Below, piece by piece: positions 10,641-57,400 of a DNA stretch of 64,000 bases. This DNA comes from an archaeon. Its GTDB lineage: Archaea; Thermoproteota; Nitrososphaeria; Nitrososphaerales; Gagatemarchaeaceae. The first letter of the stretch is position 1; every line of letters starts with the position of its first letter. The notes below the pieces were generated by a model. The model made no database searches, was not told where the DNA came from, and worked only from the letters and a program-made list of their open reading frames with translations. The translations under genes were made by a program, and so were the position numbers. The DNA is taken from contig JAKAUC010000009.1 in the NCBI GenBank assembly GCA_021827865.1, forward strand, positions 124,001 to 188,000. Reading direction: 5' to 3'.

Positions 10641-13145
10641 CTAGGTGAGCTTCTTCCTCAGGCGCTCCGCCCTGTCGGTCCTCTCCCAGGTGAAGTCAGG
10701 GTCTTCCCTCCCGAAGTGGCCGTAGCAGGCGGTCTTCCTGTATATGGGCCTGAGGAGGTCGAGCTCCTTGATGATCATCCCCGGGCGCATGTCGAAGATC
10801 AGCCCCGCCGCCTCGGCGATCTTCTCGTCGTCCGCCTTCCCTGTCCCCATGGTGTCCACCATGAAGGAGACGGGCTTGGCCACGCCGATGGCGTAGGCTA
10901 TCTGCACCTGGCACTTGGCTGCCAGTCCGGACGCGACTATGTTCTTGGCTATGTACCTCGCCATGTAGCTCCCGGAGCGGTCCACCTTGGTAGGGTCCTT
11001 CCCGGAGTTGTGGACCACGAATCCATTCGCGGTGAAGGTCTGTGACCCTGGGACGCTGATGTCAAAGACGTGGTTGACCGATGGCGTTGTGAGGTCGACC
11101 CTAGAGTAGTAGTGGCCCATCTCGTACAAGTATTCGAGATATGCGAAGTCGTCCTCGGAATGGAGGAGGCCTCGGTAAGTGTCGAGGAACTCTCCCAGCT
11201 TGGCGTATGTGAGTTCCCTGGCGGCCTTGCCGGTGGTGGCGCGCGTCAGCCTCCCGATCTTGGCCGCGTCTTTCTTCCTTTCCGCCTCCGGCAGCTTGGT
11301 CCAAAGGCGGGCCAGCCTCGCTAGCTGGTGGGGGACTGCCTGGGCGTGCCTCTCCGCACCGAAGTCCAGCTCCCTGAGTGTCTTTTGCTTGCTCGGCAGG
11401 CCGAAACCGATCTCCTTCTGGAAGATCCTGACGGAGTCCGCCCCTTTGACCCGCAGCCTGTACTCGGGGAACCTGCTGAACGCCTTCCGCCCCTGGATCT
11501 CTGACACTCGGGCCCCGCTGTGGAACAAGGCGACCGATGCCACGATGCCGAAGCTCAGAAGCAGCGATTGGACGTTCGATATCAGACTCCGCGAAGTCGA
11601 CCCGATCCAGATGCCTGCAGAGTTCTTGCCCCTCCCGGTCCTCCCCACGTGACCATCCGTGTCGAAGAGTCCCCTGAGAAACGCAGCCACCACGCTCCTG
11701 GGGGCGTCGAAGATTGTCGGAGGCACGTCTTTTTCTGGCGCCAGGCTAAGATCGACCCCGAGGTACTCGAGGAACGCTCTGAGCTTGACCCCAGACACGG
11801 ACCACCAGTGGCCGTAGATTTTTCCCTTCGTCCCGAACAGGCGGAGAGAAAGGTCCTGCACCGTCTTTTTCATTTCAGGGTCGGGGACGCAGACCTGGAT
11901 CACGTCGTATCTCTTGCAGTAGCCGTCGCCGATGAGGAGCCCCATCAGATAGGCGTAGTCTTCCGTGACGACCCGTGGAAGGCTAAGGAGGTTATGGTGA
12001 GTGGTCCCTTTCTGATAGCCATGGTCGAAGCCGCCGACGTCCGCGTCTCCTCCAAAGAGCCTGTTCTTCCTGTGGATGGCCACGTAGTCCCCTTTCTTCA
12101 GCTCATCCAGCCTGCGCCACTCGTAGCCCCCGGACTCGTCGATTATCCTGACGAGCTGGTGCTCCGAACCTTCAAGGGAGTAACCGTCTTCGGTGGCGAC
12201 CCGCACGGTCTTCATCACGCCGTTGTCCATCCACTCTGTAGCCAGCATCGGGTGAGTGTCTGTCTTCACGATGAGAGTGGAATCCACCTTGCCGTGGAGG
12301 TCTTCCAGCCTGGACAGCCCGCCGATGTGATTGACGAGCGCGTCCCCCGTTATGCAGTAGCACCCACCGCCGTGGGACCCGAACCCCCCGTAGGTGTCCA
12401 CTATGATCTTCCTCCCGGTCAGCCCCGAGTCGGCGAGGGTGCCGCCTATCACGAAGCGCCCGGTCCCGTTGACTATGAACTTCGTGTCGCCGTCGATGAG
12501 GTTCTTGGGGACCACCCGCTTCACCACCTTCTCGACCACGTCCTTCTTCACCTGCGCCTCCCCGACGCTCTCGTTGTGCTGGGCGGCGACGACCACGGCG
12601 TCGACCCTCTGCGGGGTGCCGTCGTCGTACTCCACCGTGACCTGGGACTTGCCGTCGGGCCTGAGGTATGGCAGGGTCCCCTGGTGCCTGGCGTCAGCCA
12701 GCCCCTTCACTATGCCGTGGGACAGGGTGATGGGGAGGGGCATCAGCTGCTTCGTCTCCCGGGTGGCGTAGCCGAAGACGAGCCCCTGGTCCCCGGCGCC
12801 GATCTCCTCGATGGGCCTGTTGACCCCCCTGGCTATGTCTGGCGACTGCTCCTCGATGGAGGTGAGGACCCCGCAGGTCTCCCAGTCGAGGCCGTCCCTC
12901 GCGTTGTTGAAACCGATGTCCTGGAGAACCCCCCTCACGGTGTTCTTGACGCTGACGTAGCCCTTGGTGGTTATCTGGCCCGTCACGACCACCGTCCCCT
13001 GCATTATCAGGGTCTCGGCGTCTACTCTGGCCGACGTGTCCTGCCTCAGGACATCGTCGAGGATCGCGTCCGAGATCTGGTCGGCAACTTTGTCCGGGTG
13101 ACCCTCGGCCACGCTTTCCGACGTGAACAGATGATGCTTCACCAT
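10641..13145 (-). CDS. metK: S-adenosylmethionine synthetase, bacterial type, with intein
   Basis: Makes S-adenosylmethionine from methionine and ATP. The N-extein has HHLFTSESVAEGHPDKVADQ (ATP/methionine site) and GAGDQGLVFGYA (signature 1). The second signature, normally GGGAFSGKDPTKVDRS, is interrupted after GGGCY by an intein and resumes SGKDPTKVDRSGSY. Without the intein the protein is 384 residues, the usual length of bacterial MetK; most archaea use a different, divergent synthetase. I chose ATG 13145 because GGAGGG lies 7 bases upstream. The longer start (13181) adds a glycine-rich leader. The gene probably has a leader of over 100 bases from the shared divergent promoter near 13290. 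A transferred origin is inferred from the type, not shown. Confidence 0.95.
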   Translation of the reverse strand: MVKHHLFTSESVAEGHPDKVADQISDAILDDVLRQDTSARVDAETLIMQGTVVVTGQITTKGYVSVKNTVRGVLQDIGFNNARDGLDWETCGVLTSIEEQSPDIARGVNRPIEEIGAGDQGLVFGYATRETKQLMPLPITLSHGIVKGLADARHQGTLPYLRPDGKSQVTVEYDDGTPQRVDAVVVAAQHNESVGEAQVKKDVVEKVVKRVVPKNLIDGDTKFIVNGTGRFVIGGTLADSGLTGRKIIVDTYGGFGSHGGGCYCITGDALVNHIGGLSRLEDLHGKVDSTLIVKTDTHPMLATEWMDNGVMKTVRVATEDGYSLEGSEHQLVRIIDESGGYEWRRLDELKKGDYVAIHRKNRLFGGDADVGGFDHGYQKGTTHHNLLSLPRVVTEDYAYLMGLLIGDGYCKRYDVIQVCVPDPEMKKTVQDLSLRLFGTKGKIYGHWWSVSGVKLRAFLEYLGVDLSLAPEKDVPPTIFDAPRSVVAAFLRGLFDTDGHVGRTGRGKNSAGIWIGSTSRSLISNVQSLLLSFGIVASVALFHSGARVSEIQGRKAFSRFPEYRLRVKGADSVRIFQKEIGFGLPSKQKTLRELDFGAERHAQAVPHQLARLARLWTKLPEAERKKDAAKIGRLTRATTGKAARELTYAKLGEFLDTYRGLLHSEDDFAYLEYLYEMGHYYSRVDLTTPSVNHVFDISVPGSQTFTANGFVVHNSGKDPTKVDRSGSYMARYIAKNIVASGLAAKCQVQIAYAIGVAKPVSFMVDTMGTGKADDEKIAEAAGLIFDMRPGMIIKELDLLRPIYRKTACYGHFGREDPDFTWERTDRAERLRKKLT
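11007..12356 (-). other. Intein with LAGLIDADG homing endonuclease inside MetK
   Basis: It spans 450 residues (264-713, counting from ATG 13145). It begins C-ITGDALV (block A), has the block B-like GYSLEGSEHQLV with His, and ends FTANGFVVHN, followed by Ser as the first C-extein residue. Cys1, penultimate His and final Asn are all present, so class 1 splicing should work, with Ser as the +1 nucleophile. Two dodecapeptide motifs, YLMGLLIGDGY (401-411) and FLRGLFDTDGHVG (489-501), mark a DOD-type endonuclease with both catalytic Asp residues present. The intein cuts the conserved metal/phosphate-binding loop, a typical insertion site because the host gene cannot lose it imprecisely. The exact N-edge is Cys at 12356, not the Cys two residues earlier, which replaces the family's Ala. 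Confidence 0.92.
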
Positions 13146-13280
13146 CGCAATCCCTCCCTCTGTAGCTCCCGACCCCCCCACCGCGCCCCCGGGCGGGGCC
13201 TTCCGAGACGAGCGCCATGGCCAAGGGTCCGGAGCCGGCCGCCCTTGTCTCCCCTCGTTGGCACGATGTTCGCCTCCCTG

Positions 13281-13324: not shown

Positions 13325-13897
13325 ATGTCGTCAGCGCTGATAGAGCCGAGGCAGCTCAAGAAGATCCGGGTCCAGCTCGGGTACACCCAGGGGAGGCTGG
13401 CGAGGGAGGCGGGGGTGAGCCAGTCGATAGTAGCCAAGATAGAGGCGGGCTCCGTCGACCCGACCTACAGCACCCTGGCGGCCATCTCGAAGGCGCTCAA
13501 CTCAGGGAGCGTGGGGAGGGTCAGGAAGGCGGGGGACGTGATGTCCACCCCGGTGGTCGGGGTCCAGGAGGACGCCAGGCTCAGAGAGTGCGCCGCGCTG
13601 ATGAAGAGGAAGGGCTTCTCCCAGGTCCCTGTCTTCTCCGGGGCGAGGATCGTCGGGACGATCACGGACAGCCACATCATGGACGCCCTCGCCGCTGCCC
13701 CGGACCCGAAGAAGGTCCTCGACGACAAGGTCCGGGACCACATCCAGCCCGCCTTCGCCGTGGTGGGGAAGGACACCCCGGTGGACGCCCTCTTCTCGCT
13801 GTTCAAGTATCTCCCCGCCGTCCTGGTGGAGTCTGAGGAGAAGGTCCAGGGGATAGTGACGAAGATAGACCTGATGACAGCAGAAGCCGCGGAGTGA
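13325..13897 (+). CDS. HTH-CBS transcriptional regulator
   Basis: A 190-residue cytosolic protein. Residues 8-58 form an XRE-type helix-turn-helix (LGYTQGRLAREAGVSQSIVA). Residues 68-188 form a pair of CBS domains (AGDVMSTPVVGVQEDARLRE; VRDHIQPAFAVVGKDTPVDA). This fusion is common in archaea; CBS pairs bind adenosyl ligands such as AMP, ATP or S-adenosylmethionine. The gene is divergent from metK with a shared AT-rich core promoter, which makes control of metK and of itself a reasonable inference, not a demonstrated one. It starts at ATG 13325, a few bases after the predicted transcript start. Confidence 0.9.
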   Translation: MSSALIEPRQLKKIRVQLGYTQGRLAREAGVSQSIVAKIEAGSVDPTYSTLAAISKALNSGSVGRVRKAGDVMSTPVVGVQEDARLRECAALMKRKGFSQVPVFSGARIVGTITDSHIMDALAAAPDPKKVLDDKVRDHIQPAFAVVGKDTPVDALFSLFKYLPAVLVESEEKVQGIVTKIDLMTAEAAE

Positions 13898-42149: not shown

Positions 42150-42918
42150 CTTTATGCCTGGAGCGGCGATCCGGCTTGATCTGGCCGTGCTAGAATGGGG
42201 GCAGGCGGGAGCATGCCGAAGGCTGCGAGGTCGGGCCTAGGGTCAGTTGTCTAATCACGTTGCAGTCTTCTTTCCCCCGACCAACGCCCCCTGTCCAGGC
42301 CGCGGCCACAGCCAGCGCCCGTAGCGCCGCCAAGGTCATGTCGTAGGCGTTGTCAAAGTCGACCGCGAAGTTGACCAGCATCCCGATTGACGGCAGGACG
42401 CCGATTAGCCGGCGGAGAGCAGGTTCGCAGCAGAAGCGCTTTCCGGCACTCTGGTGGTGAACGGGGACTTCGTTGTGGACTACCACTAATACAAGCTGTT
42501 CCTCCTCGTCCTGGAGAAGGGGCCGTCGGAGGGGATCTCGGTGGCGGGGAGGGAGACGAAGTTCGACCTTGTCACCTGGCTTGCGGCCAGTGCGGCGGTT
42601 TCCTAAACGAGCATAAAGAGACAAACTGGCACCGAAAAACTGTCTTGAATGTGCCTATCGTACCTATCGTATAGTCTATCTCCGGGTACTGACTCCCGAC
42701 AGCCAGCACTAAGCCATCGATGGGCCGCCCAGCAGTCGAGTTTTCGACGCTGACGTGATTAATCCGCGATTACACTACAAGCTAGTTGCTGCAAGGCTGT
42801 TGAGAAGGAAACGGGGATAAAAAATCTCAATGAAATCGGTCTCTTACCAGAACGTGCAGCAAACATGCTGAAGAAACAGATGTGATATGGAGACTCTCGC
42901 CTAATGTAAAGGTCAGTC
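42150..42918. other. Gene-poor, partly decayed accessory stretch
   Basis: Nearly 770 bases without a convincing intact gene. 42190-42420 holds only weak readings on the minus strand (e.g. FAVDFDNAYDMTLAALRALA). 42433-42606 holds a coding remnant, listed separately. From about 42640 to 42918 the base content drops to AT-rich with many short stops and no gene. The composition shift marks the edge of the lower-GC module that follows. Confidence 0.4.
42433..42606 (+). pseudogene. Coding remnant with in-frame stop
   Basis: Read in one frame it gives EALSGTLVVNGDFVVDYH, a TAA, then YKLFLLVLEKGPSEGISVAG and TKFDLVTWLAASAAVS-stop. GC-ending codons and amphipathic strands look like a decayed soluble or membrane-associated protein of which only about 57 codons survive. 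No start codon precedes it. The parent family is not recognised. Confidence 0.35.
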
Positions 42919-43662
42919 TTAACGAATCAAGAGTTCCTTGAAATCGTCGAGAGCGTATAGGGGGTCAGTCACACGCAGCGACAGGAGATCCCTAATCTTC
43001 TTCGCACAGTCTTGAATCCCACTGTCCAGTGTTGCTAAGATGACGCTATGTTTGGACAATAGCTCCGCAGCCTCCAGGACTATCTCCTTGTCGTTCCCAG
43101 AGACACAATCGAGCGCGATGCCTTTGGTTCTGGTTCCGGGGGAGACCTCAACTTCCCAAGCTGAGGCTAAGAGGCTAGTTAATTTGATATCGTATGACTC
43201 CATCGTGCGCTTTAATTCCTGCATCACGATGAGGGCAAAGGATCCTATTGTCTTAATCGCGAATTTCCTGGAGTCTGAGAGGGCACCTTCGAAGAATGCT
43301 TCGACTTTATTGTTCATGACTTTTCGCGTTTCGCTAGAGGTGGACTTCTTTACCCTGCGGAAGAACTCTCTTAGAATCTTGTAATCGCCTGGCGCGAGGT
43401 CTGCATCTGCTTCCGGGCCGGAAGCGACACCCTTTTGCTCCCGCAGATAATCTAGCGCAGCTCGGACCACACCAAAGGTGTCCTCCGACAGCTCCCGGAA
43501 TCGCCGCCTGGCTTCATCTGTGGCTGTTTTCAGTACTGCAAGTTCGATTCCCGCCCTCCGGCACCCTTCTTTCATTCTCTGTACCCGATCAAAGTTGGTG
43601 CCCTCAAATACCTCCACCAGAATCACGTTCGTATCAACTACGAGGTAACGTTCTGGTCTCAA
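42919..43662 (-). CDS. PIN-like nuclease-domain protein of a two-gene module
   Basis: A 247-residue protein, larger than VapC. Asp10 in YLVVDTNVILVEVFE, Asp185 and Asp191 in ALDCVSGNDKEIVLEAAELL, and Asp213 in ILATLDSGIQDCA give the acidic cluster of a PIN/FEN-like nuclease. Between them is a long helical insert (about 85-170) with conserved-looking MNNKVEAFFEGALSDSRKF. Its ATG overlaps the stop of the upstream gene (ATGA, 43659-43662), so the two proteins are made together. The composition is clearly lower in GC than the surroundings, a sign of transfer. A defence, toxin or RNA-processing role is inference. Confidence 0.7.
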   Translation of the reverse strand: MRPERYLVVDTNVILVEVFEGTNFDRVQRMKEGCRRAGIELAVLKTATDEARRRFRELSEDTFGVVRAALDYLREQKGVASGPEADADLAPGDYKILREFFRRVKKSTSSETRKVMNNKVEAFFEGALSDSRKFAIKTIGSFALIVMQELKRTMESYDIKLTSLLASAWEVEVSPGTRTKGIALDCVSGNDKEIVLEAAELLSKHSVILATLDSGIQDCAKKIRDLLSLRVTDPLYALDDFKELLIR

Positions 43663-44753
43663 GCCGCAGGAACGATTAGCTCATGAAGACCGGAAGCGAA
43701 TTTCTTGGTAGATTCAAACACGATTTCGCGGAGCTCGACTTTCAGTCCTTGTTCCTTTATTTCGACCATTGCCGCTGCCATTGCGTTCTCGACCTCGCCC
43801 ATATAGCGATCAAGAACTCTGGGATCGACGCCCTCAGACTTCAGGATTGGACCTTCTAGGAGCTCATCCATGCAGGAAGAGTTCATCAATGCCACGTAAA
43901 GCTTGAGTTTTAGAGTAGCCAATGAAATAGCGTCACACGTCTTCACCAGTTCTTTGTAACGGTCTTTGTACAATGAAAACCGCCTCTCGGCCAGACGTAA
44001 GTTTCGTCTCTCCTTGAAAGATGCCGCAGTGTGAGAAAGCATATTTATTGTCGCATTGGATTGAGTCTTGAGGAGAGTGTTCGCTTCGTTGAGTATCATC
44101 GAGAACCTGAAAGGAAGGTCCGAGAAAATTAGCAAATAGGTAGTCGCATCTTCTTCCTCCTCGCTTATTTTGTCGAGAGCCTCCCTGAAATCAGTCGCAT
44201 ATTTCGCGTCCTCTAGAAAAGCGTGGCCATCCGTCTTCCTGAAGAGATTCTCAAGCAATGGACCAATCTCTTTATCATCCAGCCATCCGTCTACCATATT
44301 CTTTGCGCTCCTGCTAGCATACATTTTCTCGTTGAACCAGATGGGAAAAGAAGAACCAAGCTCTTCCCGGAGCTTTTCTGACGCCCTAAGCCGCTCAGAC
44401 TCAGAGACCTTGGTGAAGTCGTCGGGGCCGACAATTGGGAAAAGAGACATCCTCACTTCCCGTCTTGTAACGCCGTGCCCTTTCACATTCTCAACTTGGA
44501 CCTGTGGTGAGAGGTTCGAGAAGAGAAAAGACGAGAACATTCCTGTGGCTCCCGTCGTTAGCAGTTGACTCATCTGTCGTTCCTCCCTCGGCTTGGTTAT
44601 ATATGAAATAAGCCTTGTGAACACCACTTCTCTAGCGGCTCCATCCACCCTCTGAAGCGGCCGTCCTCCTCCTTTCAATGGAAGTATGGGGATAGATTCA
44701 GGCTGAAATCCCGCAACCCGCCTATACACCCTATCAGAGGAGGGTTGTGCCAT
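43659..44753 (-). CDS. Unknown, mostly helical partner protein of the PIN-like nuclease
   Basis: A 364-residue soluble protein with no recognised domain. Residues 1-60 are basic; a long helical body follows (SESERLRASEKLREELGSS, FKERRNLRLAERRFSLYKDR, LKLKLYVALMNSSCMDELLE) and ends with helix GEVENAMAAAMVEIKEQGL and strand KVELREIVFEST. Leaderless start: CAATATCC near 44777 is about 25 bases upstream of ATG 44753. It overlaps the PIN-like gene by four bases. Whether it is antitoxin, sensor or substrate carrier is unknown. Confidence 0.6.
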   Translation of the reverse strand: MAQPSSDRVYRRVAGFQPESIPILPLKGGGRPLQRVDGAAREVVFTRLISYITKPREERQMSQLLTTGATGMFSSFLFSNLSPQVQVENVKGHGVTRREVRMSLFPIVGPDDFTKVSESERLRASEKLREELGSSFPIWFNEKMYASRSAKNMVDGWLDDKEIGPLLENLFRKTDGHAFLEDAKYATDFREALDKISEEEEDATTYLLIFSDLPFRFSMILNEANTLLKTQSNATINMLSHTAASFKERRNLRLAERRFSLYKDRYKELVKTCDAISLATLKLKLYVALMNSSCMDELLEGPILKSEGVDPRVLDRYMGEVENAMAAAMVEIKEQGLKVELREIVFESTKKFASGLHELIVPAA

Positions 44754-53014: not shown

Positions 53015-54034
53015 ATGGGGAAGTCTCCTGTGGTCAAGGTCGGAGGGGGGCAGCTGACCGGCAGGCTCGCCTGGACCCCCGAGCGGACGGAGGCGGCGAG
53101 GAGGTACACCAGGGAGAAGACCGACGCGAACCTCGCGGCCTACGAGGCGGCCGAGCTGAAGGCTGCCAGGGAGGCGGTCGCGCTTCAGGCTTCCTTCGGT
53201 TTCGGGTATCTCACCGACGGCGGGGCCGGCGTCACCGACATCTTCGCCCCGTACACCGAGGGGCTCGGGGGGGTGAAGGGTGGCGGGAACATAGACAAGT
53301 ACCCGGGGACCCGGAACTCGTACTTCCACACCCCCGTCGTCGAAGGGGACATCAGGCCGACCGCCGTGGCGTTAAAGTTCCTGTTCACGTCGGAGCTGAA
53401 GGGGAAGAAGAAGGCGATACTCCCGTCCCCCGCCGCGCTGGCCCTGGCCTCGGAGGACACGCACTACAGTTCCAAGGAGAGGCTGATGCTCGCCTTCGCC
53501 GAGGTGCTGAAGAAGGACGTCGCGGAGCTGGCGGCCGCGGGGTACGAGTACATCCAGCTGACCGAGTGCTTCTTGAACAACGAGAGGTTCGTCAAGGCCT
53601 CGGCCGGGCTCGCTCCCTCCTTCGGGGGGTGCGTGAGGGAGATATTCGACGGCTACTCCGGGAGGTCCTGCGTCTACTTCCACGCCGGGGACGCGTCGGG
53701 GTTCCTCCCCCTGCTGGCTGAGTCGGGGGTGACCGACCTGGGGTTCGACTTCAACACCCCGGCGTCCGCGGCCAAGGGGAAGGTCCGGGGGGAGGGGGTG
53801 ATACTTGGGGTGCAGAACTCCACGAGGAAGCTCCCCGAGGAGTGGCTGGAGAGGGAGCCGGAGGCCCTGGCGGCCCGGGCAAAGGAGTACGTCAGGGAGC
53901 TGGGCCTGGGGGAAGAGACCGAGGTCTTCCTCGCGCCCAGCCAGGACTACGACGGCCTCCAGACCTACCCCCAGGCGAAGAGGCGGCTCGCGAGCCTGGC
54001 GAAGGCCATTGAGATCCTGGGAGGGAGGGCATGA
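53015..54034 (+). CDS. MetE-like protein lacking zinc ligands (N-domain-like)
   Basis: A 339-residue TIM-barrel protein: FGFGYLTDGGAGVTDIFAPY near residue 65, AILPSPAALALASEDTHYSS, YEYIQLTECFLNNERF, VYFHAGDASGFLPLLAESG and VILGVQNSTRKL. The order is that of cobalamin-independent methionine synthases, but the His-x-Cys/Glu/Cys zinc site is absent (FHAGD where the ligands should be). It is therefore probably a substrate-binding or structural partner. First gene of a four-gene operon; its stop overlaps the next start (ATGA). ATG 53015 is kept; a GTG at 53030 is an alternative given the TATA-like TAATGTTATTA at 52998-53008. Confidence 0.75.
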   Translation: MGKSPVVKVGGGQLTGRLAWTPERTEAARRYTREKTDANLAAYEAAELKAAREAVALQASFGFGYLTDGGAGVTDIFAPYTEGLGGVKGGGNIDKYPGTRNSYFHTPVVEGDIRPTAVALKFLFTSELKGKKKAILPSPAALALASEDTHYSSKERLMLAFAEVLKKDVAELAAAGYEYIQLTECFLNNERFVKASAGLAPSFGGCVREIFDGYSGRSCVYFHAGDASGFLPLLAESGVTDLGFDFNTPASAAKGKVRGEGVILGVQNSTRKLPEEWLEREPEALAARAKEYVRELGLGEETEVFLAPSQDYDGLQTYPQAKRRLASLAKAIEILGGRA

Positions 54035-55302
54035 CGGACCCCCTCTTCGCCACCATGGACATCGGGAGCGGGCCCCGGGACCCCGGGCTGACCAACCTGC
54101 TGATCGGCAAGCCGATAGACCAGGACCAGGCCGCGAGGGTGGAGTCCTTCGTCCGGCTGGTCGACCCCGGGCTGCTGAAGTCCTACGGGGAGCTCGTCAG
54201 GGCGCCCTTCCCCCAGAGGGTGCCGGCCGCCGAAGACTTCCTGACACGGCTCGCCGTGGGTGCCCTGGAGGGGCTGGGGTACAACTGGGTCTTCGACCTC
54301 GAGTGGCCGAGGACCGAGATGGTCGACTGGGAGCGGGCGGACGTCGGGGGCTTTGAAAAGTCCGAGGCCTGGCAGCACTCCTACGGGTATCGCTTCTGGA
54401 AGCCTTCGGAGATAGCGAGGCCCTTCGAGTACCGCAACTCGGACAGGCACGTCGAGGAGTACCTGCGGGTGGCGAAGCACGCGAAGAGGGAGGTGAGGTT
54501 CCCGATAACCGACGCGCACTGCGAGGTCCACGCCAACGACAACCTGTACTACTACGGGAGGTGGCTGGGGAAGGAGAAGGACGAGGTCCTCGCCAGCCTG
54601 AAGGCCGACCACGAGGCGACAATGGAGTTCTCCCGCGAGGTTACCGTGAAGAGGGTGAGAGAGCTCGCGAAGCGCGTCCCGTCCGGTTCGACACTCGCGA
54701 TCCAGCACGACAACTTCATCGTGACCTGCGAGGAGAGGGAGTACGGCGCCGGGTACCTGAAGCGGCTGGGGTTCGACGCCCCGTCGTTCATCCAGTCCCT
54801 GAAGGAGATAACCCCGAACGTCCCCGGGGTGAGGTACTTCATCCACAACTGCCTGCAGGACTACTCGCTGTACGCGAAGTATCTGGTGGAGGTCCCCAGC
54901 GTGGACAAGTTCTGCCTCGAGATGTCGAGCCACGACACCGAGCTGCTGGGGACGACGGACGAGGTGAGGAAGGGGCCCGGCTTCAGGTCCCTGAAGCTGT
55001 TCAAGGAGTACGGGCTGCGGAAGAACCAGGTAGTCGGCGTCGGGGTGGCCTCGACCTACGAGGGGGCGACGGCGCCCAGGCCGGAGCTGGTCAGAGATAG
55101 GATACTGTACGCCGTCAAGGTCCTCGGGGACCCCTGGAAGGTCCAGCCCGTCCTCGACTGCGGGACAAGGAACCTCAGCCTGCAGACCATGTGGGACATC
55201 GGTGTGGCTGTCCACAGGGGGAGGGACCTGGCGCTGAAGGCCGTTGGGAAGGACTATGGCATCGACGTCGAGCCGTTCCTTACAGGCGGGGGAGGGAAGT
55301 GA
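54031..55302 (+). CDS. MetE-like zinc methyltransferase, second subunit
   Basis: A 423-residue TIM-barrel protein of the methionine synthase II group. A complete zinc site is visible: His272 and Cys274 (YFIHNCLQDYS), Glu297 (FCLEMSSHD) and Cys377 (VLDCGTRNLS). ITDAHCEVHANDNLYYYGRW and AIQHDNFIVTC are further conserved-looking blocks. It probably moves a methyl group to or from a thiol. The start overlaps the stop of the first gene and its own stop overlaps the third gene (GTGA), so all subunits should be made in step. It does not match any named core MetE in full. Confidence 0.75.
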   Translation: MTDPLFATMDIGSGPRDPGLTNLLIGKPIDQDQAARVESFVRLVDPGLLKSYGELVRAPFPQRVPAAEDFLTRLAVGALEGLGYNWVFDLEWPRTEMVDWERADVGGFEKSEAWQHSYGYRFWKPSEIARPFEYRNSDRHVEEYLRVAKHAKREVRFPITDAHCEVHANDNLYYYGRWLGKEKDEVLASLKADHEATMEFSREVTVKRVRELAKRVPSGSTLAIQHDNFIVTCEEREYGAGYLKRLGFDAPSFIQSLKEITPNVPGVRYFIHNCLQDYSLYAKYLVEVPSVDKFCLEMSSHDTELLGTTDEVRKGPGFRSLKLFKEYGLRKNQVVGVGVASTYEGATAPRPELVRDRILYAVKVLGDPWKVQPVLDCGTRNLSLQTMWDIGVAVHRGRDLALKAVGKDYGIDVEPFLTGGGGK

Positions 55303-56546
55303 AGGCCCCCAGGACCACCACCATAGGGAGCTACCCCGTCTTCCCCTCGGGGGAGGACGTCGAGTACTACCAGAAGATGTCCAGGACGGGGGTGGCCGAC
55401 GAGGTCCTCGACCCCTACGTCTGGGCGACCCAGGAGGCGGTGTCAGACTTCGCTGCCGCGGGGGTGGAGGTGGTCTCCACCGGGCAGACCAGGGGGGACC
55501 TGTACTCCCTCTTCCTGGACGCCAGGTTCGTGAAGGGGATAGAGTGGAGGGGGGCGGAGGCCTACGCGACAGGGAAGATAGAGAGGGGGGCGAGCAGCAG
55601 GTCCGCGGACCTGAAGCTGGCGAGGAGCATGCTCCCGGCGCACCTGTCCCTGAAGGAGCCTGTGACCGACGCCTACACCCTGGCCAGGTTCACCAAGATA
55701 GCCTCGCGGTCATACAAGGACACCAGGGAGCTCGCCAGGGATATCAACAGGAAGATAGTCGTCCCTGAGATAGAGGCGCTGCAGGGGGCCGGGGCGGACG
55801 TCGTCCAGCTGGACTCACCCAACCTGGCGGCCGAGTCGTCGGTGCCGACCTACGTCTCGGACTTGTATGAGGAGGCGGCCTCGGCTGCGAAGGTCCCCCT
55901 GGCGATGCACGCCTGCGGGGACACCACGAGGATATTCAGGTTCCTGACAGGGCTGAAGGTGCAGGCGCTGGAGCTTGACTTTTACCACCACCCCAGGCTC
56001 TTCGACGAGGTGGCGAGGAAGGGGTTCGACCAGGCGATAGGCCTCGGGGTCCTCGACGGCCAGGTGCTGAGGGTGGAGACCGTCGACGAGATAGCCGCGC
56101 TCATAGAGAAGGGGAGGCAGGCGATAGGGGAGAGCCGCATCGGGTACGTCCACCCCCACTGCGGCCAGAGGAGCATAGACCGCGACACCGCGTTCAGGAA
56201 GAACGCCAACCTGACCATGGCCAGGGACGACGTGTTCTTCGGCGAGGCGGCGGAGCCAGAGGGGGTAAGGCTGAAGGGGGGGCAGGCGGACTCCAAGGGG
56301 TACTTCCTCGTCACCGTGAACAGGGAGAGCAGGGAGCTGGTGGCGACGTTCTACACCTACAAGCACGAGGTGGTGAAGAGGTACAGGTCGAGGTTCGCCG
56401 AGCGGCTGATGCAGGCGCTGAACGCCGAGGCGGACTCCCTGGGGATAAGCAGGAGGCACCTCGCCTACCTGACCCTGGAGCTCGGGAGGGCCGAGGCGTC
56501 CCTGGGGCCCAGGTCCCCGCCATACAGGCAAAGGATGATACAATGA
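55299..56546 (+). CDS. Core methionine synthase (MetE-type) with DUF4346-like tail
   Basis: A 415-residue protein from GTG 55299. TTTIGSYPVFPSGEDV at the start, the zinc site His204/Cys206 (AMHACGDTTRIF), Glu225 (ALELDFYHH) and Cys288 (VHPHCGQRS) give a core-type homocysteine methyltransferase without the N-terminal folate domain of bacterial MetE. After residue 310 comes a different domain: GGQADSKGYFLVTVNRESRE ... FYTYKHEVVKRYRSRF and the end block RRHLAYLTLELGRAEASLG, which resembles DUF4346, known next to or fused with pterin/corrinoid methyl-transfer proteins. The methyl donor may thus be a tetrahydropterin or a methylated carrier. Third in the operon. Confidence 0.82.
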   Translation: MKAPRTTTIGSYPVFPSGEDVEYYQKMSRTGVADEVLDPYVWATQEAVSDFAAAGVEVVSTGQTRGDLYSLFLDARFVKGIEWRGAEAYATGKIERGASSRSADLKLARSMLPAHLSLKEPVTDAYTLARFTKIASRSYKDTRELARDINRKIVVPEIEALQGAGADVVQLDSPNLAAESSVPTYVSDLYEEAASAAKVPLAMHACGDTTRIFRFLTGLKVQALELDFYHHPRLFDEVARKGFDQAIGLGVLDGQVLRVETVDEIAALIEKGRQAIGESRIGYVHPHCGQRSIDRDTAFRKNANLTMARDDVFFGEAAEPEGVRLKGGQADSKGYFLVTVNRESRELVATFYTYKHEVVKRYRSRFAERLMQALNAEADSLGISRRHLAYLTLELGRAEASLGPRSPPYRQRMIQ

Positions 56547-57400
56547 CCGAGGGGCCCAGGGGCTTCCTCAGCATAGTGGAGGTCTTCCCGCCGAGCTTCG
56601 GGGGGGCGGAGAAGGAGCCCGTGCTCGGGCTGAGGCAGAAGACCAGGGACTTTGTGGAGAGGGTGAGGAGGATCCAGCCCTACGCCGACGTCGTCCTGGT
56701 CGCGGATGTGAAGGACGCCTCGAGGGCCAAGTTCTCCCCGGTCCACGCCGCCGCCCTCCTGAGGGACGAGACGGGGGTGGACGCGGTCCCGGTGGTCACG
56801 GCCAGGGACTCGAACAGGCAGGCGGTGACGTCGTCCATAGTGACGGCGCTCTCCCTGGGGCTGAGGGGGGTCATGCTCGTGTGGGGGGACAGGTATGGGG
56901 AGGAGGAGGGGGTCAGGAACGTCTACGACTTCGCCTCGCTCTCCGAGGTGGTGGCCCACGCCCGGGGGCTGGCCGACAGGGCGGGGGGGAAGTGCAGGAT
57001 ATTCGCCCCGGTCAACATAGCGAAGCTCGACGGCGCCAGGGGGGTCGAGCTGGCGAAGTCCAGGATCAGGGAGGGGGCGGACTATCTGCTCGCCCAGCCT
57101 CCGACCGTGGACGCGGGGCCGACCCTGAGGTTCCACGAGAAGATACTTTCGAAGCTGGGGCTGAAGGACAGGGTGATACCCAACGTCTTCCCCTTCAGGG
57201 ACCCCGCCGACATCGAGTATTGCAGGAAGAGGTTCGGATGGAGCATCCCCCCCAGGATGGACGAGATCGCGAAGGGAGGGGAGGCGGAGCTGCTGAAGGA
57301 GGCGAAGAAGGCGGCGGCGGGGCTGGCGGAGAGCGGGTTCTCGGGGGTCTACGTGTCCACCAGGGGGAGGCCCGAGCTGGCCCGGTTCATACTCGACTGA
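56543..57400 (+). CDS. Methylenetetrahydrofolate (or -pterin) reductase-like protein
   Basis: A 285-residue TIM-barrel protein of the MetF group: SIVEVFPPSFGGAEKEPVLG at the start, YADVVLVADVKDASRAKFSP, VVTARDSNRQAVTSSIVTAL, GLRGVMLVWGDRYGEEEG and PNVFPFRDPADIEYC. The Glu in EVFPP and Asp in LVWGDRY fit the flavin/pterin site. It would make the methyl donor used by the three MetE-like proteins upstream. Overlaps the third gene by four bases and ends the operon. Confidence 0.88.
   Translation: MTEGPRGFLSIVEVFPPSFGGAEKEPVLGLRQKTRDFVERVRRIQPYADVVLVADVKDASRAKFSPVHAAALLRDETGVDAVPVVTARDSNRQAVTSSIVTALSLGLRGVMLVWGDRYGEEEGVRNVYDFASLSEVVAHARGLADRAGGKCRIFAPVNIAKLDGARGVELAKSRIREGADYLLAQPPTVDAGPTLRFHEKILSKLGLKDRVIPNVFPFRDPADIEYCRKRFGWSIPPRMDEIAKGGEAELLKEAKKAAAGLAESGFSGVYVSTRGRPELARFILD

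Follow-up and report, generated by a model that had tools for sequence, protein, structure and literature searches.

MetK-b, a probable mobile intein with a homing endonuclease, in the sole AdoMet synthetase found in an archaeal genome

The S-adenosylmethionine (AdoMet) synthetase of this archaeon, the only one found in its genome, is interrupted by an endonuclease-bearing intein that is probably mobile and that belongs to a family we name MetK-b. Within the window (the whole 64,000-nucleotide stretch analysed), an open reading frame on the minus strand (10641–13181) runs without internal stop; the ATG at 13145, picked by comparison with the starts of relatives, is the likely start of metK, giving a precursor of 834 residues (10641–13145, −). 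This chain is formed by an N-extein of MetK residues 1–263, ending in SHGGGCY (12357–13145, −), a 450-residue intein with a LAGLIDADG homing endonuclease (11007–12356, −) and a 121-residue C-extein plus stop, beginning SGKDPTKVDRS (10641–11006, −). The in-frame insert sits at a conserved host site, exactly between the Tyr and Ser of GGGCY/SGKD, flanked on either side by host sequence collinear with that of intein-free homologues, and its removal leaves 263 + 121 = 384 residues. A search with the junction pattern gave a single match in the window and none in 100 shuffles. Pfam matches comprise the N, M and C domains of S-AdoMet_synt and LAGLIDADG_3 (PF14528, 1.8e-17), while Intein_splicing (31.7 bits, cut-off 35.8) and Hom_end (20.5 bits, cut-off 21.1) fall slightly under threshold; the NCBIfam models intein_Cterm (30.5 bits, cut-off 15.6) and metK TIGR01034 (524 bits, cut-off 309) both match, the latter identifying a bacterial-type MetK. 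The motifs GHPDK, GAGDQG, GRK and GKD..K.D, which we take to be catalytic, are invariant or nearly so among 18 aligned precursors. A first-pass annotation of this DNA had proposed an intein at precisely this Tyr/Ser site, both LAGLIDADG motifs, a host enzyme of normal length once the insert is removed and a bacterial-type MetK in an archaeon, all of which are borne out.

The intein runs from CITGDALVNH to FTANGFVVHN and has the residues expected at its ends: Cys1 (12354–12356, −) in what we presume to be block A (CITGDALVNHIGG, presumed limits 12318–12356, −), His449 and Asn450 in blocks F and G (VFDISVPGSQTFTANGFVVHN, 11007–11069, −), and a +1 Ser nucleophile in the C-extein (11004–11006, −). 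Conservation of the HN ending across relatives is partly built in, as the scan pattern demanded it. Both endonuclease motifs are recognizable from Pfam and sequence, YLMGLLIGDG with Asp144 (11922–11951, −) and FLRGLFDTDG with Asp232 and Asp234 (11652–11681, −), and these three Asp residues are conserved in 22/22 MetK-b inteins. Cys147 and Cys156 are likewise invariant in all 22. The predicted intein model (pLDDT 87.5) appears to adopt the Hint fold, matching TliVMA, PI-PfuI, Mxe GyrA and Ssp DnaB, and its best Foldseek matches are endonuclease-bearing inteins, led by the VMA intein TliVMA (PDB code 7qss, E 3.4e-22, TM 0.66 on the query), there described as homing-endonuclease-associated; TliVMA occupies a different host and site and shares 19% identity. 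The best single-sequence PDB match, over residues 2–114 and with splicing blocks aligned, is the Mxe GyrA intein (PDB code 1am2), which differs in its host and its 199-residue chain. A model of the full precursor, built from a thin alignment, scores lower (pLDDT 79.4, pTM 0.58), and block means drop to 25–30 in residues 231–260, the loop directly before the intein; this fits an active site that is unformed before splicing, a reading to which we give little weight. The 834-residue chain would have to self-splice into the 384-residue enzyme, presumably by an acyl shift at Cys1, transfer to Ser+1 and cyclization of Asn450.

MetK-b is rare and patchily distributed. A junction scan of 84,980 genomes (one per species) returned 20 records, every one an intein of a single family, 18 of which read across both junctions at exactly the same site; adding the window's genome and that of a relative brings the carriers to 22, which come from DPANN, Heimdallarchaeota, Nitrososphaeria, Omnitrophota and Thiomargarita. 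All 22 are one intein family at one site. The suggested novelty holds in that no MetK intein was found described in the literature searched, but not for this genome, whose allele is shared at the same site by the others. In one Omnitrophota MetK the other MetK signature is interrupted by a second intein as well. At the level of the genus, 4/12 full-length MetKs contain the intein and the remaining eight alleles are uninterrupted at the site (GGGC[F/L/Q]SGKD). The window's genome (G000) is a draft of 20 contigs with 7.5% estimated contamination, which might point to an assembly or binning artefact; the chance of this is negligible, given that metK lies on a 772-kb contig and that three other genus assemblies have the same gene, insert and shared neighbours, one of them with metK on a 1.7-Mb contig in a genome whose listed completeness is 100%. 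Intein identity among the genus genomes is 73–78%, so these are not copies of one contaminant. Records L047 and L051 are the contigs of G029 and G027 and were dropped in favour of L004 and L003.

Neither a second MetK nor the archaeal-type enzyme (PF01941) was found in the window's genome (99% complete; one MetK), and 0/20 pattern-hit genomes have PF01941 (completeness not given; three are bacteria, which would not be expected to have it). The first-pass annotation called bacterial-type MetK unusual in archaea, but it is not so rare there: it occurs in 85/245 genomes of the phylum of the Micrarchaeota record and in 7/24 order relatives outside the family. Divergent from metK and outside the intein is an HTH_3-CBS gene (13325–13897, +), a frequent metK neighbour and a candidate regulator.

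The LAGLIDADG endonuclease would cut intein-free metK alleles at their highly conserved site, and repair would copy the intein in; we propose that such cutting and copying explain its rare, patchy, cross-phylum spread, which departs from that of the host gene. Across phyla the intein tree is in strong conflict with the extein tree: in AU tests, whose groups were picked after the trees had been seen, intein data reject the extein clade L038+L039+L055 (p = 6e-51) and extein data reject an intein clade of six (p = 8e-5). This conflict indicates that the intein moved without its gene. The idea that host gene and intein were both transferred thus stands in part: both look transferred, but across phyla their histories differ. 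The intein trees exclude L049 (a 68-residue intein piece); L050, lacking its N-extein, is in no extein tree and the L041 extein is partial. The MetK tree omits L067, L078 and L113 (interrupted; from the same genomes as L046, L057 and L042), L079 and L090 (short) and L091 (not extracted), with L053 trimmed to 390 residues; its bacterial MetKs come from two phyla only, those of L042 and L048, and are the ones that match the window's MetK best, and 166 plasmid MetK records were left out of the trees. There was no sign of a phage or viral carrier: the junction pattern has 0 hits in IMG/VR, where the one viral relative found is 26% identical and lies in another protein, and the best phage relative (27%) falls under a gene annotated as terminase.

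Inside the genus, the case for intein movement without the host gene is weaker. Gene and intein may instead have arrived jointly from a Micrarchaeota-like donor, followed by vertical descent and repeated intein loss, a history that we consider unlikely. It agrees with a quick tree that places the genus MetK as sister (SH-aLRT 99) of one Micrarchaeota clade, whose member FK1.bin85 has the intein, and with the intein data, which do not reject a clade of the genus plus the FK1 intein (p = 0.059). The other seven MetKs of that Micrarchaeota clade and eight genus MetKs, however, are intein-free. Intein proteins pair G000 with G027 (p = 0.037 against the rival group) whereas intein nucleotides do not (0.721 to G027, 0.724 to G029), the latter favouring joint transfer. 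Synonymous divergence argues the other way: G000 differs from its sisters far more in intein dS than in extein dS (for G000–G029, extein 0.41 (0.32–0.52) and intein 1.34 (1.06–1.81)), unlike G029–G015 (extein 0.32, intein 0.25); yet intein dS is the higher in 5/6 genus pairs, beyond those singled out by the trees, so synonymous sites may change faster in the intein.

The first-pass annotation did not mention that the canonical histidines of blocks B and F are both Gln here. Block B (GYSLEGSEHQLVRI, 12144–12185, −) reads S-E-H-Q in place of the T-x-x-H of class 1, with Gln67 (12156–12158, −) at the usual His position, and in the four genus inteins Gln439 (11040–11042, − in the window) stands where most relatives have the block F His. 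The canonical block F Asp is present (Asp432, conserved in 21/21 inteins reaching that far), and judged by these blocks the intein is class-1-like and His-less rather than canonical class 1. These two replacements could mean slow or failed splicing. A decaying intein, with splicing lost and MetK inactive, or with the unspliced chain functional as it is, would be consistent with these replacements and with the Intein_splicing match under its cut-off, but is very improbable: the genome yielded no other synthetase, the insert lies three codons ahead of the conserved Lys of SGKD, the four genus copies all lack internal stops (the '1 TGA' listed for G027 metK is upstream of its ATG), and the last 30 intein residues show dN of 0.015–0.064 in five distant pairs whose dS there is >1, over 30 codons only. 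A further point against decay is that, of the 12/22 MetK-b inteins with Gln at block B, eight are from outside the genus.

The host residue at −1 is aromatic, Phe or Tyr, in 21/21 visible junctions (L066 and L102, which read GKDA, are absent from the −1 and −2 counts). In the window's lineage, strain from this bulky residue would probably cover part of the role of the block B His; we tentatively propose, with the balance somewhat against it, that Gln-type MetK-b inteins splice without that His because the conserved aromatic −1, which belongs to the active-site signature of MetK, strains the scissile bond, that the host motif thereby shares in catalysis, and that this junction might double as a redox gate on AdoMet supply wherever Cys(−2) is present. 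In one published study, Phe(−1) allowed up to about 50% splicing of the M86 Ssp DnaB intein carrying H73A (PMC6333167). The same study describes the Tko CDC21-1 group, which resembles MetK-b in that the block B His is naturally missing and the −1 residue is bulky; that group has Leu(−1) and its own compensating residue in contrast to the Phe/Tyr(−1) of MetK-b, in which His and Gln forms occur within one allele. Mxe GyrA has TANH in block B, against [T/S]xNQ in MetK-b Gln types (SEHQ in the window's genus), and His66, adjoining Gln67, might supply the missing His. At several positions, for example 430 (Val/Thr), the Gln and His types differ without exception; the types are largely two clades, so these positions show descent as much as compensation.

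The N-extein ends in Cys(−2) Tyr(−1) (12357–12362, −), and a redox trap through the Cys(−2)/Cys1 pair is possible; the first-pass annotation had suggested that splicing rate or redox state could exert control. That the intein persists because it acts as a switch, a host Cys(−2)–Cys1 disulfide blocking splicing when oxidized and so linking AdoMet supply to redox, strikes us as quite improbable. Cys(−2) occurs in 8/21 visible junctions, including the window's, and an N-extein Cys/Cys1 disulfide stops splicing of Pyrococcus abyssi MoaA (PMC10663303), a likeness that lies in an N-extein Cys able to bond with Cys1. Against a switch, Ala(−2) occupies the other 13/21 junctions, Cys(−2) is a host residue also present in 34/67 intein-free MetKs counted, and the spread of the intein looks parasitic.

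Outside MetK, the nearest relatives by profile are MutS Walker A inteins (L132, L133, L135 and L136; host identity by sequence reading, not family search), which also sit in a nucleotide-binding loop and score 217–236 bits against 748–797 for MetK-b members in the same searches, which covered the two phyla to which the Woesearchaeota record L038 and the Heimdallarchaeota record L040 belong. A mobile endonuclease-bearing intein remains our preferred reading, and MetK-b is a clear example of an intein that has spread between phyla and domains independently of its host gene. With His-containing and His-lacking inteins at one site beside the same kind of −1 residue, the share of the extein in catalysis becomes directly testable. 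Where the intein interrupts the sole AdoMet synthetase, all AdoMet-dependent methylation would hinge on splicing.

The metK gene of the window is a single open frame at 10641–13145 on the reverse strand (834 codons plus a stop; open to 13181), whose first 263 and last 121 residues form a bacterial-type S-adenosylmethionine (AdoMet) synthetase (TIGR01034, 524 bits; cut-off 309). A 450-residue intein at 11007–12356 (−) separates Tyr263 from Ser264 (numbering of the joined enzyme) within GGGCY–SGKDPTKVDRS (dash, insertion point); it starts with Cys, ends with His-Asn and is followed by host Ser, and its LAGLIDADG motifs are YLMGLLIGDG and FLRGLFDTDG. The first-pass annotation had placed a full-length intein here, and its call is correct to the base. 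The structure predicted for the intein plus short flanks (mean pLDDT 87.5) has endonuclease-bearing inteins as its top Foldseek matches (7qss, E = 3.4e-22). A MetK intein was not found described in open-licence full-text literature, as judged by listings in a search of the literature; passages of PMC517821 treat MetK and inteins as separate topics, and an exception model for intein-containing MetK is absent among the NCBIfam matches of the window protein. We rate this allele, MetK-b, as new to the searched literature and its host as a new type of host enzyme.

MetK-b is widely scattered yet rare. Scanning one genome per species (84,980 genomes, contigs of at least 3 kb; the window's own record possibly outside this set) with the degenerate junction pattern HN–[S/T/C]GKDP[S/T..]KVD gave 20 records, all of them inteins, a lower bound because the pattern demands both His-Asn and the SGKDP motif. 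The insertion site is identical in the 18 read across both junctions; contig ends truncate the other two inteins (L050 and L049), and the rest of the L049 intein, with the same N-junction, lies on another contig of its genome (L114). By title, the records are Woesearchaeota (3), Pacearchaeota (1), Aenigmatarchaeota (4), Diapherotrites (2), Micrarchaeota (3), Heimdallarchaeota (1), ‘archaeon’ (2, one being genus genome G029, LSA3.bin14), Nitrososphaerales (1, genus genome G027, A_CRE_07), Omnitrophota (2) and Thiomargarita (1). With the window's genome (G000) and its relative G015, 22 genomes carry MetK-b. The 20 full-length inteins span 448–456 residues in a nearly gap-free alignment; the window intein is 44–52% identical to those outside its genus; Cys is invariant in 22 of 22 at residues 147 and 156, in the endonuclease region. 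Searches that may miss cases, because few first-look candidates were scored per genome, found MetK-b in 4 of 400 genomes of the class (all four in the window's genus; a fifth match is a ribonucleotide reductase intein), in 2 of 371 genomes of the Woesearchaeota record's phylum and in 1 of 227 of the Heimdallarchaeota record's phylum, the last three being already-known carriers. Among MetK-bearing genomes, open frames above 700 residues occur in 2 of 85 in the Micrarchaeota phylum and in 2 of 110 and 1 of 30 in the two bacterial phyla sampled (L042 and L048, respectively), again all known carriers; within the genus, 4 of 12 full-length MetKs have the intein.

Outside MetK, the nearest relatives found are an intein in a ribonucleotide reductase (33%) and MutS Walker A inteins, which score 217–236 bits against 748–797 for MetK-b inteins in the same profile searches, both hosts being named by reading sequences. 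The Woesearchaeota and Heimdallarchaeota searches also gave two and seven weaker matches; the five read of these nine are all MutS inteins, in the Walker A loop of MutS-like genes (L132, L133, L135, L136 and L137). The Omnitrophota MAG AUK132 (G419, L114) has two MetK inteins, one per MetK signature motif: alongside MetK-b, a 406-residue intein occupies GAGDQG–C...HN–SMIGY, and it is a relative of MetK-b (30% over 372 residues, E = 9e-37). The 30 genus genomes (G000–G029) hold many more intein-like or LAGLIDADG-like matches, which suggests an intein-rich lineage.

Tree comparisons indicate that MetK-b moves across phyla independently of its host gene. Exteins (host MetK without intein) from Thiomargarita, Omnitrophota and the PMV and FK1 Micrarchaeota cluster with intein-free MetKs from their respective phyla in a tree of 87 MetKs (closest Omnitrophota placement, SH-aLRT 82), and the Thiomargarita intein is nested in a clade of archaeal inteins (support 100/99). 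In clade tests, for all of which, here and below, groups were picked after the trees were seen, the extein clade L038+L039+L055 is rejected by intein data (p = 6e-51) and the intein clade L038+L041+L044+L048+L053+L054 by extein data (p = 8e-5); a clade of genus and FK1 Micrarchaeota inteins is not rejected by intein data (p = 0.059). Inteins are more identical than exteins in just 27 of 190 pairs; most transfers, if they took place, would thus be old.

Evidence from inside the genus points both ways. By extein, G000 falls with G029 and G015 (98/87), followed by the intein-free G012 and G022; by intein protein, it falls with G027 (91/88; 78% identity, versus 74 and 73% to G029 and G015). The G000+G027 grouping is rejected by extein data (p = 8e-5), and G000+G029+G015 weakly by intein data (p = 0.037); nucleotide identity of the G000 intein does not favour G027 (0.721, with 0.724 to G029). 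Extein and intein dS, imprecise above 1, are 0.41 [0.32–0.52] and 1.34 [1.06–1.81] for G000–G029, 0.52 and 1.48 for G000–G015, 0.91 and 2.06 for G000–G027, 0.82 and 1.44 for G027–G029, 0.99 and 1.56 for G027–G015, and 0.32 and 0.25 for G029–G015. G000 and its sisters thus have inteins that look older than the extein split, as would match separate arrival or replacement. Generally faster change of the intein would also raise its dS; the G029–G015 value speaks against this, yet five of six pairs show an intein excess. Splicing and endonuclease parts both look to be under purifying selection: G029–G015 inteins have dN 0.050 and dS 0.25 (dN 0.015 in the N-terminal splicing part, 0.076 in the endonuclease and 0.046 in the last 30 residues), and over those last 30 residues dN is 0.015–0.064, with dS above 1, in the five distant pairs.

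The block B histidine column holds Gln67 in the window intein (aligned by profile to the Mxe GyrA intein). Across the 22 MetK-b inteins this position is Gln in 12 (four in the genus, eight outside) and His in 10, with at least two changes on the tree; the block F His is Gln in 4 of 4 genus inteins and Asn in L042. A His-less centre has a small known precedent. According to Friedel and co-workers (PMC6333167), large residues at −1, the last host position, make up for loss of the block B His, Phe(−1) in M86(H73A) giving up to ~50% splicing, and inteins that lack this His in nature, the Tko CDC21-1 group among them, could have arisen in this way. That group has Leu(−1) in the same source, whereas MetK-b has Phe (18) or Tyr (3) at the 21 visible junctions (L050 not visible), set by the host motif: Phe or Tyr occupies −1 in 64 of the 67 intein-free MetKs counted, and the three with Leu or Gln (G012, G022 and G021) are all from the genus. 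MetK-b fits the Friedel et al. proposal, adding an aromatic −1 residue dictated by the host. Alternatively, His66, adjoining Gln67, may supply the missing histidine.

Divergent from metK lies an HTH_3-CBS gene (13325–13897, +), near metK in 10 of 13 MetK-bearing genus genomes and elsewhere in the genome in the other three; homologues (30–39%) are near metK in 6 of 90 non-genus loci (L045, L052, L056, L088, L089 and L093). CBS domains can bind AdoMet, so the protein may sense AdoMet and regulate metK. Some 40 kb away from metK, at 53015–57400 (+), lie two cobalamin-independent methionine synthase-like genes (53015–54034, +, over the Pfam cut-off; 54031–55302, +, below the NCBIfam cut-off) together with a gene for a methylenetetrahydrofolate reductase (56543–57400, +). 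Three ORFs at 42190–44753 (−) have a third-position G+C of 0.53–0.68, below most of the window, and are possibly a recent import; the two searched had no Pfam match at 1e-5.

Genus MetKs are sister to one Micrarchaeota clade (61–64% identity; SH-aLRT 99 in the 87-MetK quick tree, whose bacterial MetKs come from two phyla only). Bacterial-type MetK is common in the Micrarchaeota phylum (85 of 245 genomes), and a separate MetK clade occurs in 7 of 24 genomes of the order outside the family. Thirteen of 30 genus genomes have bacterial MetK (12 full length; G004 cut by a contig end), seven have the archaeal-type synthetase PF01941, two have both (G016 and G025) and 12, only 48–90% complete, gave neither; in other genera of the family (G030–G036), PF01941 is present in 6 of 7 and MetK in 0 of 7. 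Most simply, the genus would have acquired a bacterial-type MetK, which then took the place of the archaeal enzyme in some of its members. A profile search of G000 (draft, 1.94 Mb, 20 contigs, 99.2% complete) gave one MetK match and did not find PF01941, which was detected in four of the 14 control genomes, each of them archaeal; PF01941 was likewise not found in the intein carrier G015 (listed as 100% complete). If MetK is the sole synthetase, all AdoMet would depend on splicing.
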